Shown piece by piece: positions 6,331 to 20,457 of a DNA stretch of 22,647 nt (position 1 is the stretch's first letter; every line of letters begins with the position of its first letter). The notes beneath the pieces were generated by a model. It ran no database searches. It had not been told where the DNA came from and saw only the letters and a program-made list of their open reading frames with translations. A program made the translations under genes and the position numbers. The DNA is from a virus: positions 1 to 22,647 of IMG/VR virus record IMGVR_UViG_3300009436_000120. One strand, 5' to 3'.

Positions 6331-6956
6331 TGTCTAAAAAAGGAAAAGATAAACCACAAGGACAGCCTCAGGATGTCATTGGAGGAGGAATAGACGGCAG
6401 TGTAGTAGAACAGCTAATTGCCCGTGAAGACCTTATATCGACTCCTAAGAGGGATAAGAACCATTTATTGTTTTTTAACAGTAATGGTGCTTGGGCTAGG
6501 ATAGTATCTAGTGTAAATACTATAACTAAAGAGGAGACAGAAGACTTAGCTACCGGTAAAAAGACAATAAAAGACGTAACTGGAAGTAAAAGCTTAGCTT
6601 ATAATAATGTAATTATGGGCGGCACAGTTAAACAAGCAACTGCTAAAGAGCCTACATCAATAGGAGGAGGAATAGATCAATCCCCACATAATCCAATTAA
6701 TATAGATATGGACGGATATGCCTCTAGTGGGGATATCAAAAAGAACGCTTACCATAACTATAAAAGCTTAGGATATAGACCAACACCCGGGATAACCTCA
6801 GTATCTGTTAAATCTAAAGGTACATACGGAAGTCTTAGAGAAGCAGAAGTGAATGTAACAGTATGGACACTAGAGGATCTAGAGATGATGCAAGCACTCT
6901 ACTTAAGACCAGGCTTTACAATACTGCTAATGGGGACATACACTACAACTAGATAG
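6330..6956 (+). CDS. Baseplate protein, N-terminal part (frame broken near 6930)
   Basis: The first 208-aa segment begins at the TAATG overlap and runs through ERLI-type polar sequence with Gly-rich patches. The segment KGTYGSLREAEVNVTVWTLE followed by MMQALYLRPGFTILL resembles a recurring domain of phage baseplate proteins, where the block normally continues as a Trp-Gly-His/Trp motif. Here frame 0 instead reads MGTYTTTR and stops at 6954-6956, while the expected WGHTLQLD continues in another frame from 6931. The functional product is therefore probably one ~514-aa protein spanning 6330-7875, and the last eight residues here are out-of-frame. Causes could be a two-base deletion or one-base insertion, a sequencing error, or programmed frameshifting. 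Confidence 0.7.
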   Translation: MSKKGKDKPQGQPQDVIGGGIDGSVVEQLIAREDLISTPKRDKNHLLFFNSNGAWARIVSSVNTITKEETEDLATGKKTIKDVTGSKSLAYNNVIMGGTVKQATAKEPTSIGGGIDQSPHNPINIDMDGYASSGDIKKNAYHNYKSLGYRPTPGITSVSVKSKGTYGSLREAEVNVTVWTLEDLEMMQALYLRPGFTILLMGTYTTTR

Positions 6957-16312: not shown

Positions 16313-17659
16313 ATGACATTAAAAGCATTGAATCAGTATGGAAAAGGTTTCCAGCTGAAGGTATTGGGCTCATTGTTAACAGACAAAAGCTTTCTTCTGA
16401 ACGTCAGAGACGTACTACAGGAAGAGTATTTTGACTCAGACGCACACAAGTGGATTATTAATCAGCTAGTTAACTACTTTGACAAGTACCATACTACTGT
16501 GACTATGGATGTACTTAAGGTTGAATTACAGAAGATTGATAATGATATTTTAAAAGTAGCTCTTAAGGAAGAGTTACGTAATTCATATGAAGCATCTCAA
16601 GATGATTTAGACTATGTACAGGAAGAATTCACAACTTTTTGTAAGAATCAAGAAATGAAACAAGCAATTCTTAATTCTACAGATTTACTTAAAGCAGGAG
16701 ATTTTGACGGTATTAGGAATACAATAGAAACAGCTATGAAAGCTGGAATGGATAAAAATATCGGTCACGAGTATAATAAAGATGTAGAATCAAGATACAG
16801 AAAAGATTATAGACCAACAATCCCAACACCATGGGCTCAGTTAAATGAAGGAATTCAAGGAGGTTTTGGACCTGGAGATTTAGCTATAGTTTTCGGTAAC
16901 CCCGGAGGTGGAAAAAGCTGGACTTGTGTTGCAATGGCAGCACATGCTGTAAAGTTAGGATTTAATGTTAACTACTATACTTTAGAGTTAGGTGAAGACT
17001 ATGTAGGAAAACGTTTTGACTGTTATTTTACAGGATATTCAATTGATGAAGTAAACGACCATAGAAAAGAAGTTCAAACATACGTAGATAAGCTTAAAGG
17101 AAAGTTAATTGTAAAAGAGTACGCACCAAAAGGAGCTACAGTTAATACAATTAAATCCCATATTCAAAAATGTATAGACATGGATCATAAACCAGACTTG
17201 GTAGTGATTGACTATGTAGATTATCTAAGAGCACCATCAAAAGGTAAATTTTCAGAACGAAAAGATGAAATTGATGATGTATTTATTGCGACTAAGGGGT
17301 TAGCTAAGGAATTAAAAATACCAGTAATAACACCATCTCAGGTAAATAGAATGGGAGATAAAGATTCTGTAATAGAAGGAGATAAAGCAGCAGGTTCTTA
17401 TGATAAAATGATGGTAGCAGATATGTGTTTCTCTTTATCTAGAATGAAAGAAGATAAAGTTTTAGGAACAGGTAGATGGCATGTTATGAAAAATAGATAC
17501 GGCCAAGATGGAATGACCTATAACCTTAAGATGGATACTAATAACGGTCATATTGAATTTGAAGGTAAGGCCGATATAGATGAGCACTTAAATTCCGGCG
17601 ACGGCCCTACGTTTACATTATCTAGAGAAAAAATGTCAGAACTATTTGACAAAAAGTAA
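16313..17659 (+). CDS. Replicative DNA helicase, DnaB/T4 gp41-like
   Basis: A 448-aa hexameric-helicase type protein. Residues ~1-150 form a helical N-terminal domain of the DnaB type (FQLKVLGSLLTDKSFL). The RecA-like motor domain follows, with Walker A GNPGGGKSW (195-203) and Walker B LVVIDYVD (296-303, Asp300). Later motifs include ITPSQVNR (sensor region) and MKNRYGQDG, typical of the DnaB arginine/β-hairpin region. It unwinds DNA at the fork by 5'-3' movement on the lagging strand. No primase gene is seen in the window, so it must be elsewhere or host-supplied. It ends the replication block and is followed by the hairpin-rich leader of nrdB. Confidence 0.88.
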   Translation: MTLKALNQYGKGFQLKVLGSLLTDKSFLLNVRDVLQEEYFDSDAHKWIINQLVNYFDKYHTTVTMDVLKVELQKIDNDILKVALKEELRNSYEASQDDLDYVQEEFTTFCKNQEMKQAILNSTDLLKAGDFDGIRNTIETAMKAGMDKNIGHEYNKDVESRYRKDYRPTIPTPWAQLNEGIQGGFGPGDLAIVFGNPGGGKSWTCVAMAAHAVKLGFNVNYYTLELGEDYVGKRFDCYFTGYSIDEVNDHRKEVQTYVDKLKGKLIVKEYAPKGATVNTIKSHIQKCIDMDHKPDLVVIDYVDYLRAPSKGKFSERKDEIDDVFIATKGLAKELKIPVITPSQVNRMGDKDSVIEGDKAAGSYDKMMVADMCFSLSRMKEDKVLGTGRWHVMKNRYGQDGMTYNLKMDTNNGHIEFEGKADIDEHLNSGDGPTFTLSREKMSELFDKK

Positions 17660-17661
17660 AA

Positions 17662-17702
17662 TATATATGCTATTTATGGAAACATCTCCATTAGCATATG
17701 TA
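17662..17702 (+). promoter_or_regulatory. Possible anti-terminator hairpin in the nrdB leader
   Basis: ATATGCTA (17665-17672) pairs perfectly with TAGCATAT (17692-17699). The stem is extendable outward by T-A, A-T and a T-G wobble (17662-17664 with 17700-17702). An inner stem ATGG (17676-17679) / CCAT (17688-17691) closes an 8-nt loop, with a 3-nt bulge at 17673-17675. The 3' part of this loop and inner stem is the same DNA (17684-17690) that forms the 5' arm of the downstream terminator, so the two structures exclude each other. Confidence 0.5.
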
Positions 17703-17724
17703 GCTTCCTCTGGAGATTTTTTTT
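17684..17724 (+). terminator. Intrinsic terminator before nrdB
   Basis: ATCTCCA (17684-17690) and TGGAGAT (17711-17717) form a perfect 7-bp stem with a 20-nt loop, followed by an uninterrupted run of eight T (17717-17724). This has the form of a Rho-independent terminator. It lies between the helicase stop (17657-17659) and the nrdB ATG (17748). It can either end the replication operon or, together with the overlapping upstream hairpin, act as an attenuator for nrdB/nrdA. Confidence 0.7.
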
Positions 17725-17747
17725 GTCTAATTAATTAATTAAAAAAT

Positions 17748-18731
17748 ATGAGTTTACTCGACGAACGCATTGTCTACAAACCTTTCGAATACCCAAAAGC
17801 ATATGATTTTTGGCTTAAACAACAACAAGCTCACTGTCTACATACAGAAGTACCAATGTCACAAGATGTGACAGACTGGGCAAGTAATTTAAAAGATCAC
17901 GAAAAAAATGTGATTGGAGGAATCTTAAAAGGATTTGCTCAAACAGAAACAATAGTAAATGATTACTGGTCTACTTTAGTAACCAAGTGGTTTCGTAAAC
18001 CAGAAATCATTATGATGGGGACTACATTAGGTTCTAGTGAAACAATTCATGCAGAAGCTTATTCACTACTTAATGAACAATTAGGATTAGATAATTTTGC
18101 AGAATTCTTAGAAGATGAAGCTACTATGGATAAAATAGAAAGCTTAATGAAAGTAAGAGACGGCCATGATGGAACTCCAAACTGGCATGATAGGGCTAAA
18201 TCATTAGCAATTTTCTCTGCTTTTACAGAAGGAGTTAACCTCTTTAGTTCATTTGCAGTGCTACTGTCTTTTAAGATGAGGAATAAACTTAAAGTAGTAG
18301 GGCAGATAGTAGAATGGTCCGTTAGAGATGAAAGTTTACACTCGGATGCAGGATGTTGGCTATTTAGAACACTAATGGAAGAACACCCAGAGTTTAAAAC
18401 ACCTGAATTAGTAGCAGATATAGAAGAAGCAGCAAAAGATGCTTTAAAGTTAGAGTTTAACTTTATCGATAAGATATTTGAAATGGGAGATTTAGAGAAT
18501 TTAACTAAAGCTGAATTAAAAAACTTTATACGTCATAGAGTTAATACAAAAATGGGAGATTTAGGATTAAAACCTATAGTTCCGTCATCAGAGATAGATA
18601 AAGGTGCTTTAAAGACAATGAAGTGGTTTGACGCAGTAATAGCAGGAAAGCAACATACAGATTTCTTTGCTAATAGAGTGACAAATTACGCCAAAGGGCA
18701 TATGGAATGGGATGCAGCAACAATGTTTTAA
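17748..18731 (+). CDS. nrdB: Class I ribonucleotide reductase, small (radical-generating) subunit
   Basis: A 327-aa ferritin-fold R2 protein. The dimetal ligand set can be read as Glu67 (AQTETIV), Glu98 and His101 (SSETIHAEAY), Glu161 (FTEGVN), and Glu195 and His198 (RDESLH). The radical-site Tyr corresponds to Tyr105. The first ligand is Glu where E. coli NrdB has Asp84; Glu there is known from class Ic enzymes, but those lack the Tyr. The protein makes the radical passed to NrdA for reduction of ribonucleotides to dNTPs. The C-terminus ends in an aromatic residue, as expected for docking to NrdA. The gene follows the terminator/anti-terminator leader and precedes nrdA by 11 nt. It has no ATP-cone. 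Confidence 0.92.
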   Translation: MSLLDERIVYKPFEYPKAYDFWLKQQQAHCLHTEVPMSQDVTDWASNLKDHEKNVIGGILKGFAQTETIVNDYWSTLVTKWFRKPEIIMMGTTLGSSETIHAEAYSLLNEQLGLDNFAEFLEDEATMDKIESLMKVRDGHDGTPNWHDRAKSLAIFSAFTEGVNLFSSFAVLLSFKMRNKLKVVGQIVEWSVRDESLHSDAGCWLFRTLMEEHPEFKTPELVADIEEAAKDALKLEFNFIDKIFEMGDLENLTKAELKNFIRHRVNTKMGDLGLKPIVPSSEIDKGALKTMKWFDAVIAGKQHTDFFANRVTNYAKGHMEWDAATMF

Positions 18732-18742
18732 TAAAATAATTT

Positions 18743-19075
18743 ATGAGTATAGTAGTAGATACTTCCAAATGGGAAGCAGGTAAGGATTATCCAGAGTGGA
18801 TGAACGAAGTATCATTGGCAACAATATCAAAAGGGTATTTGCTAACAGATGAAACACCTAAAAAAGCATACAAAAGAGTAGCAGATACAATTGCAAAAAG
18901 ACTGGATAGACCAGATCTTGCTAATAAGTTTTTCCGCTATATGTGGAAAGGATGGCTAAATTTAGCTTCCCCTGTACTTTCTAACACCGGAACCGACCGA
19001 GGATTACCTATCTCATGTTTTGGAATTATACGCCCGATTCAATTCGAGGTATTGGTCTCACCAATGCCGAACTAA
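18743..19075 (+). CDS. nrdA: Ribonucleotide reductase large subunit, N-terminal part (frame lost near 19024)
   Basis: The first 94 residues are the N-terminal part of a class I NrdA, with the conserved run WLNLASPVLSNTG and then LPISCFG, where Cys92 is the redox-active cysteine of the active site. After Gly94 frame 0 reads IIRPIQF and stops at 19075, while the expected sequence NYTPDS continues in the -1 frame (AAT at 19024-19026). The true product should be about 571 aa over 18743-20457. No ATP-cone precedes the catalytic domain, so this enzyme lacks the usual dATP activity switch. One missing A in the GGAATT run at 19022 would explain the shift. Confidence 0.85.
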   Translation: MSIVVDTSKWEAGKDYPEWMNEVSLATISKGYLLTDETPKKAYKRVADTIAKRLDRPDLANKFFRYMWKGWLNLASPVLSNTGTDRGLPISCFGIIRPIQFEVLVSPMPN

Positions 19076-20121
19076 TGAGACTTACCTCCCTTGGCGGCGG
19101 TGTTGGTATAGGGTTATCCCGTATTAGAGGTAGAGGAGTAGAAATAGGAAACGGAGATATGGGCCAATCAGAAGGAGTAATACCATGGTCTAAAATATAC
19201 GATTCAACAATACTAGCGACTAATCAAGGAGCAGTTAGAAGAGGATCAGCATCAGTAAACCTGGATATTAACCACCCGGATATTAAAGAATTTTTGCAAA
19301 TACGTAGACCTAAAGGAGATCCTAATAGACAGTGTCTAAACCTACACCAATGCGTCGTAGTGGATGATACCTTTATGCAAAAACTAGAGCGGAGAGACCC
19401 TGAGGCTATGGATACATGGGTAACAATCCTGAAATCTAGAGTTGAGACTGGAGAGCCATATATAATGTTTAAAGACAATGTAAATAATGATAATCCACCA
19501 GCATATGTTAAAAATAACTTAGATGTAAGCATGACAAATATATGCTCAGAGATAACTTTACACACAGATGAGGAACATAGCTTCATTTGCTGTTTATCCT
19601 CAGTTAATTTAACAAAATGGCATGAATGGAAAAACTCAGATTTAGTTGAGACATCAATTTACTTTCTAGACGGGGTATTAGAAGAGTTCTTAGCTAAAAC
19701 TTCTGGAAGAGATTCACTTATTAGAGCTCATAGATCTGCTAAAAAAGGAAGAGCTATTGGACTAGGAGTACTAGGATGGCACACTTTACTTCAAAATGAA
19801 AGAATACCTTTCTCATCAATAGCTGCAACATCATATACACATCAGATTTTTTCTCAAATTAAGAGTCAAGCAGAAGCTGCATCAAGAAAGTTAGCAGATG
19901 AATATGGAGAACCACTATGGTGTAAAGGAACAGGTATGAGAAATACTCACTTAATGGCAATAGCACCGACTGTATCTAATAGTACAATATCAGGAGGAGT
20001 ATCAGCCGGCATAGAACCAATACCAGCTAATGTATATACTTTTAATTCAGCAAAAGGAACATTTATACGAAAAAACTCGGCGCTAGAAAGTTACTTTGAA
20101 GAAAGAGGATGTAATACATAG
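19015..20121 (+). CDS. nrdA: Ribonucleotide reductase large subunit, central catalytic part (ends at in-frame TAG)
   Basis: This carries the main α/β barrel of class I NrdA. Visible blocks are LTSLGGGVGIGLSRIR, NQGAVRRGSASVNL, NICSEITL (the Asn-x-Cys-x-Glu catalytic triad), FICCLSSVNL (the second redox cysteine), the long RAIGLGVLGWHTLL segment and IAPTVSNSTISGG. The first residues MFW come from frame −1 and are not conserved; authentic sequence starts at Asn in NYTPDS. The frame closes at TAG 20119-20121 in the middle of GCNT-stop-EVWDSIMKDRG. The same frame then continues with typical NrdA sequence, so the TAG interrupts the gene rather than ending it. A single C-to-T change from CAG would create it. 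Confidence 0.88.
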   Translation: MFWNYTPDSIRGIGLTNAELMRLTSLGGGVGIGLSRIRGRGVEIGNGDMGQSEGVIPWSKIYDSTILATNQGAVRRGSASVNLDINHPDIKEFLQIRRPKGDPNRQCLNLHQCVVVDDTFMQKLERRDPEAMDTWVTILKSRVETGEPYIMFKDNVNNDNPPAYVKNNLDVSMTNICSEITLHTDEEHSFICCLSSVNLTKWHEWKNSDLVETSIYFLDGVLEEFLAKTSGRDSLIRAHRSAKKGRAIGLGVLGWHTLLQNERIPFSSIAATSYTHQIFSQIKSQAEAASRKLADEYGEPLWCKGTGMRNTHLMAIAPTVSNSTISGGVSAGIEPIPANVYTFNSAKGTFIRKNSALESYFEERGCNT

Positions 20122-20457
20122 GAAGTATGGGATTCTATTATGAAAGATAGGGGTTCTGTAGCAAATCTACCAGAAGACATTATGCCTTTGGAAGATAAGC
20201 CAATCTTCCTAACTTTTGCAGAGGTAAATCAATTAGCACTAGTAGAACAAGCAGCAGTTAGGCAAAAATATATTGATCAGACACAGTCTTTAAATTTAGC
20301 TTTTGATCCAACCGATTCACCTAAGTTTATTAACCTAGTACACCAAACAGCCTGGAAATTAGGGATTAAAACACTATACTACCTTAGAACAGATTCAGTA
20401 ATTAACGGAGATATAGGCTCCAGAACATCAGAAGACTGCCTCAGTTGTGATGGATAA
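20122..20457 (+). CDS. nrdA: Ribonucleotide reductase large subunit, C-terminal part (after the TAG)
   Basis: In the same frame as the preceding segment, directly after the TAG, the sequence continues EVWDSIMKDRGSVANLP and ends as NrdA does. It includes the radical-transfer tyrosine pair in TLYYLRTDS and the C-terminal CLSCDG tail, whose Cys-x-x-Cys normally shuttles electrons from thioredoxin to the active site. If expressed alone from Met20140 it could not be a working enzyme. Its preservation suggests recent mutation, readthrough of the TAG, or a sequence error. The gene encoding a thioredoxin lies 600 bp downstream. Confidence 0.85.
   Translation, partial: EVWDSIMKDRGSVANLPEDIMPLEDKPIFLTFAEVNQLALVEQAAVRQKYIDQTQSLNLAFDPTDSPKFINLVHQTAWKLGIKTLYYLRTDSVINGDIGSRTSEDCLSCDG

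Follow-up and report, generated by a model that had tools for sequence, protein, structure and literature searches.

A conserved leader with a predicted late-type promoter and a probable 5′-terminal stem-loop precedes the ribonucleotide reductase genes of uncultured marine phages

Results

The locus and its relatives

The window, by which we mean the whole analysed stretch of 22,647 nucleotides, is a 22.6-kb virus fragment (IMG/VR record IMGVR_UViG_3300009436_000120) that carries phage tail genes, replication genes, nrdB, a broken nrdA, and genes for a Holliday-junction endonuclease and a thioredoxin. The closest relatives in culture are the Flavobacterium phages immuto, which share 78% DNA identity over the helicase-nrdB region, and T4-like capsid and portal genes are present in the immuto genome. 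The leader considered here lies between the gene for a DnaB/gp41-like replicative helicase (16313–17659, plus strand; Pfam DnaB_C, E 8e-20) and the gene that it serves, nrdB, which encodes the small subunit of a class I ribonucleotide reductase (RNR; 17748–18731, plus strand; Pfam Ribonuc_red_sm, E 8e-62). Further downstream, nrdA (18743–20457) falls into three reading frames in the window; it carries a small deletion at about 19027 and is interrupted by a stop at about 20119. In relatives it is a single intact frame of 571 aa, and the split reflects either a sequencing error or a broken gene.

Leaders were taken as the regions in front of nrdB and were extracted from the loci of two scans, with more added later. 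A distance filter left the immuto clade out of the resulting set of 101 distinct leaders, and that clade is reported apart. The annotated start of the immuto NrdB (L162, 6787–6895) at 6895 lies ~36 codons too far in, and homology places it at 6787.

Two overlapping hairpins in front of nrdB

The original prediction described two hairpins between the helicase gene and nrdB, the second running into eight T, and a direct reading of the sequence agrees with it. Hairpin 1 (17665–17699, plus strand) consists of an outer stem, ATATGCTA at 17665–17672 with TAGCATAT at 17692–17699, and an inner stem, ATGG at 17676–17679 with CCAT at 17688–17691. Hairpin 2 (17684–17717, plus strand) pairs ATCTCCA at 17684–17690 with TGGAGAT at 17711–17717, has an inner helix, AGC/GCT, in its loop, and leads into the T tract of eight T (17717–17724, plus strand), the first of which is paired. 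Because positions 17688–17690 belong to both, the two hairpins are mutually exclusive. The fold of 17657–17750 includes hairpin 1 within its minimum (total −18.1 kcal/mol; hairpin 1 alone, −16.2 kcal/mol; z = −2.65, with 3 of 200 shuffles equally good). For the window and L001, the fold of lowest energy is hairpin 1, which suppresses hairpin 2 in the predicted ensemble. When the promoter arm is left out of the fold, hairpin 2 appears, at −11.1 kcal/mol. In the window alone, hairpin 1 is the more stable, and an RNA starting behind the TATTTAT core described below would form hairpin 2.

In the window, hairpin 2 has the make-up of an intrinsic terminator, with a G+C-rich stem of 7 bp followed directly by the eight T. 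A simple terminator scan missed the site because the loop is longer than the 8 nt that the scan allows. An Rfam scan of the window returned no family and the only candidate leader peptide in the leader was ATG TAG, which leaves a two-state attenuator with neither a leader peptide nor a known aptamer as its sensor. The hairpins end at least 30 nt from the nrdB start, and the ribosome-binding site and start codon are left uncovered.

Conservation of the hairpins

A stem starts 2–7 nt behind TATTTAT in 97 of the 101 distinct leaders (the immuto clade left out), the distance being exactly 6 nt in 58. The stem search favours pairing, and fair controls are the identical search on shuffled sequence and behind 172 other late-type sites: a stem score of at least 13 was reached by 90% of the nrdB leaders versus 10% of the shuffles and 6% of the other sites. 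Across the 20 leaders of the window clade, 99.3% of the cells of hairpin 2 are paired, and one A-U pair has been replaced by G-C. In the larger set of leaders, the stem's own arms are 98.8% complementary, against 70.9% (sd 1.3%) for swapped arms. The stem variants include ATCTCC/GGAGAT, GTCCTC/GAGGAC, GGCCTC/GAGGCC, ATCCCC/GGGGAT and GTCTGC/GCAGAC, among others; structure is kept across leaders, and the stem and loop sequences are not conserved. RNAalifold found no consensus structure in a MAFFT alignment of 54 leaders because MAFFT aligned the T tracts and put the 3′ arms out of register, and the case for covariation rests on the stem-registered comparison in its place. Judged with its relatives, we consider hairpin 2 to be an element conserved far beyond chance, and one that is largely confined to RNR leaders.

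The compensatory changes for which the original prediction proposed to test both stems are thus seen in the arms of hairpin 2, but there are none for the pairs of hairpin 1, which over the 20 close leaders pair in 69.1% of cells versus 68.9% in column shuffles. Folding favours hairpin 1 in the window and its closest relatives alone, and the two hairpins compete in a few further leaders; hairpin 2 prevails in most of 98 leaders, even when the promoter arm is included. The 5′ arm of hairpin 1 is made up of the TATTTAT motif and the conserved AATATATAT, and it is, by this comparison, constrained as late-type promoter DNA; the 3′ arm falls in the variable loop of hairpin 2. All of this tells against the two-state attenuator that had been proposed. 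In such a switch, RNA read through from the helicase would form hairpin 1 and be read on, and RNA from the late promoter, having no 5′ arm, would form the terminator. The folds predicted for the window and L001, dominated by hairpin 1, would suit this mechanism, and T4 has a related design (PMC2988022), but relatives that retain hairpin 2 have lost hairpin 1. We therefore judge hairpin 1 to be incidental and a two-state switch to be very improbable.

A predicted late-type promoter upstream of hairpin 2

The word [CA]TATTTAT ranks with the most strand-biased intergenic sequences in most of six genomes, and its intergenic enrichment is 10- to 30-fold. The density of TATTTAT is 2.5–6.3 per kb between genes versus about 0.2 per kb inside genes, and that of the T4 late-promoter word TATAAATA between genes is 0.4–0.9 per kb. 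TATTTAT is found before genes for terminase, portal, sheath, tube, tape measure and similar structural proteins. No −35 element was found at the [CA]TATTTAT sites of the six genomes, and A or a purine is preferred 5–6 nt downstream of them. We therefore take [CA]TATTTAT to be a genome-wide late-type promoter core, with late timing inferred from gene content. In T4, the late-promoter word TATAAATA spans −13 to −6 (PMC1524935). By analogy, the core in the window, CTATTTAT (17670–17677, plus strand), would occupy the same positions, and this analogy together with the downstream base preference predicts a transcription start at 17683–17684 (plus strand). If so, the 5′ end of the nrdB mRNA probably lies at the base of hairpin 2.

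The likeness to the T4 late promoters (gp55/gp33/gp45) extends to a short A/T core, the lack of a −35 element, the many copies and the position before structural genes. The core differs, however, and no convincing gp55 relative was found in the genomes examined: a search with phrog_234 and phrog_12791 gave one weak immuto match (E 0.008), which on profile comparison was unlike gp55. This match to phrog_234, the T4 late sigma family, is a protein of ~232 aa (L163, 28174–28872) that is conserved in L381 and L382. Some late-type promoters lie just 4–5 nt before a start codon (G005 at 89664 and 100150; G002 at 144872 and 157825; immuto at 81513) and would give leaderless mRNA.

Directly upstream of the core at nrdB, comparison of leaders revealed a conserved A/T block, AATATATATG (17660–17669, plus strand). 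A genome has about one copy of TATATNNTATTTAT, usually at nrdB; the block is present in 63 of the 101 distinct leaders and at only 9 of 177 late-type sites in the six genomes, 4 of those 9 being nrdB. The AATATATAT block upstream of the core is nearly confined to RNR leaders. An RNR-specific A/T block that overlaps an RNR promoter recalls the control of bacterial RNR operons by the palindromic NrdR box, the consensus of which is ACACWATATATWGTGT, but the phage leader contains no match to this consensus with up to 3 mismatches.

The six genomes also contain a second promoter class, AGTTG-N18-TTC[GT]TATATT (e.g., L162–L165 and L170–L184), with a spacing of about 18 nt, which clusters at 60–80 kb of immuto among small hypothetical genes. 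It bears only a partial likeness to host promoters, for which a −7 box of TAnnTTTG has been described (PMC9723704).

A separate nrdB promoter downstream of the hairpin, which the original prediction had named, together with complete termination, as a finding that would speak against an attenuator, was sought between hairpin and nrdB in 71 leaders, and no recognisable promoter motif was found. Barring an unrecognised start, the hairpin is therefore unlikely to be a complete terminator.

The T tract and the TGTCTWA motif

At least four T in the 5 nt after the stem are found in 68 of the 97 leaders, well above chance. The other 29 have three or fewer, some of them without any U run; L117, L127 and L131–L133 combine a longer stem with loss of the U run. 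Comparison of leaders also identified a conserved single-stranded motif, TGTCTAA (17724–17730, plus strand), directly behind the hairpin. In 68 of the 97 leaders, including leaders without a T tract, TGTCT is found no more than 16 nt from the stem, and it is rare in other intergenic regions; in most leaders, UGUCUWA follows 1–6 nt behind the stem. Before other NrdB types the motif is altered or lost (TATCTAA, AATCTA, none in L138). Pairing of TGTCTAA with the first nrdB codons (TTAGA by eye in some leaders) was considered and rejected, such pairing being absent in the window clade. AATATATAAAGATAT is very conserved directly before the nrdB ATG in most relatives (e.g., L019 and L033) and absent in the window clade; it could form a weak A/U hairpin around the nrdB start.

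The retention of UGUCUWA behind the stem in most leaders raises the possibility that hairpin and motif together serve as the target of an RNA-binding factor from phage or host, in translational repression or Nus-type antitermination. To our knowledge, no factor is known for such a leader. A similar arrangement, TATTTAT ... TGTCTAAC, before an unrelated membrane protein of 78 aa is consistent with this idea, as is the precedent of T4 DNA polymerase, which binds to an operator hairpin ~40 nt ahead of its own start (PMC3014915). The stem and loop sequences are not conserved, however, and the motif changes before other NrdB types, so we think a protein-binding site quite improbable. The leader of the membrane protein (MDLLKKIGSWA...) reads TATTTAT - N - GGAATTCC ... 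TGTCTAACTA, lacks a G+C-rich hairpin, and was seen in three genomes (G001, reverse, 130562–130640; G008, 39910–39980; G005, 74309–74360).

Association of the element with RNR

Where a gene has been inserted between helicase and nrdB (L059 and L060), promoter, hairpin and TGTCTTA stay with nrdB. The inserted gene encodes 193 aa (VHEKPWRHAIVENFFDED...) and lies 11–600 nt behind the helicase stop. The hairpin is also kept before an NrdB of 27% identity (L086, L116, L118, L134, L135 and most of L201–L212) and before the ATP-cone NrdB of L138. In L142 and L150, which we count as one event, the helicase has no RNR behind it; TATTTAT is kept and the hairpin is absent. RNR is present without the hairpin in the immuto clade (about 26 distinct leaders, L297–L331) and in L214 and L215, and the hairpin is therefore not essential. 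These comparisons indicate that the hairpin element goes with RNR rather than with the helicase, though the link is not strict.

We had first considered the hairpin to be a terminator for the helicase, and a plain intrinsic terminator of the replication operon with an incidental dyad was also the alternative offered by the original prediction. A stem with eight T directly behind a gene end, and a T tract in most relatives, are what such a terminator would look like. Yet the element follows nrdB when a gene is inserted (L059), is missing behind a helicase that has no RNR (L142 and L150), and sits behind a promoter at fixed spacing; moreover, with no recognisable nrdB promoter downstream, full termination would silence RNR. 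This explanation was dropped and is in our view improbable.

The site behind the helicase is a hot spot of RNR exchange, with three NrdB types and RNR loss (L086, L138, L210, L213 and L142). In L210 and L213, the old leader with a remnant of a few codons stands before the new nrdB. A scan of the genome contigs with NrdB found no flavobacterial host gene.

Discussion

Comparison of the leaders leads us to conclude that nrdB in these phages is preceded by a conserved RNR leader with a late-type promoter, that a 5′-terminal stem-loop is probable, and that a two-state attenuator is not supported. We propose that the promoter, with the nearly RNR-specific AATATATAT block upstream of its core, drives the RNR operon. 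The transcript, starting at ~17683, would open with a stable stem-loop, hairpin 2, followed by a U-rich stretch with the conserved UGUCUWA and then, about 24 nt later, by the nrdB start. All nrdB transcripts, whether started locally or read through from the helicase, would pass the hairpin and T tract, and we infer that the stem-loop determines how much late RNR mRNA is produced. The amount of RNR made is probably set by the hairpin. Where the T tract is good, as in the lineage of the window, the stem-loop would most likely act as a partial promoter-proximal terminator, that is, an attenuator; in lineages with a decayed T tract, it may instead protect the 5′ end. We give about an even chance to this reading of the leader as a late-type promoter with a 5′-terminal stem-loop that tunes RNR mRNA as partial attenuator or 5′-end protector. 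It preserves part of the original suggestion that RNR could be switched separately from the helicase: a conserved terminator-like hairpin in an RNR leader, apart from the helicase, could regulate RNR separately, although the two-state mechanism envisaged for it does not stand.

Between the two modes we rank partial attenuation first and 5′-end stabilisation close behind because the T tract is strong in 68 of the 97 leaders and weak in 29, and the U run has been lost in the five long-stemmed leaders. The weak tracts argue against termination as the conserved function, and attenuation leaves the conserved TGTCTWA unexplained. An alternative that does away with termination is that a stem-loop at +1, leaving no single-stranded 5′ end, slows the decay of RNR mRNA. 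The stem sits at the predicted +1 with fixed spacing, its structure is kept with its sequence free, and in leaders with a decayed T tract it persists and even becomes longer (e.g., L117, L127 and L131–L133). A T tract far above chance in most leaders would nevertheless be needless for stabilisation, and here too the conserved TGTCTWA is unaccounted for; stabilisation by itself is possible though unlikely. The 5′-terminal stem-loop of the Escherichia coli ompA type is an mRNA stabiliser, and it resembles the phage element in the position of the stem and in its freedom of sequence, but the phage leader has in addition a T-rich tail and UGUCUWA.

Other known systems offer partial parallels to the proposed leader. 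With intrinsic terminators and promoter-proximal attenuators it shares the G+C-rich stem, the eight T of the window and the T-rich tail of most relatives, but the phage hairpin lies directly behind a promoter and before the gene, its T tract has decayed in about 30% of relatives, and it comes with no recognisable downstream promoter or leader peptide. In T4, a late promoter can be contained in the 5′ arm of a hairpin available exclusively to read-through RNA (PMC2988022), and late promoters in hairpin arms delay the translation of homing endonucleases and lysis genes (PMC2988022, PMC3014915). Hairpin 1 of the window likewise holds a late-type promoter in its 5′ arm; however, the T4 hairpins (I-TevI, segB, mobE and e) hide the ribosome-binding site, whereas hairpin 1 does not and is not conserved. 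In a search that covered part of the literature, we found no description of an RNA leader or of RNA-level control for phage RNR genes.

More tentatively, these phages may possess a dedicated leader RNA for RNR, composed of an RNR-specific late promoter, a 5′-terminal stem-loop and UGUCUWA. Such a leader would have been kept through RNR gene exchange in T4-like flavobacterial phages and would adjust the dNTP supply in late replication, via partial termination or an RNA-binding factor. RNR genes are common in phages and shape the dNTP supply in infected marine bacteria. The leader occurs in many uncultured marine phages, and its link to RNR spans three NrdB types. The cultured phage immuto, which has no leader hairpin, provides a natural contrast. 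Finally, the two promoter classes described here give an initial map of early versus late control in these phages.
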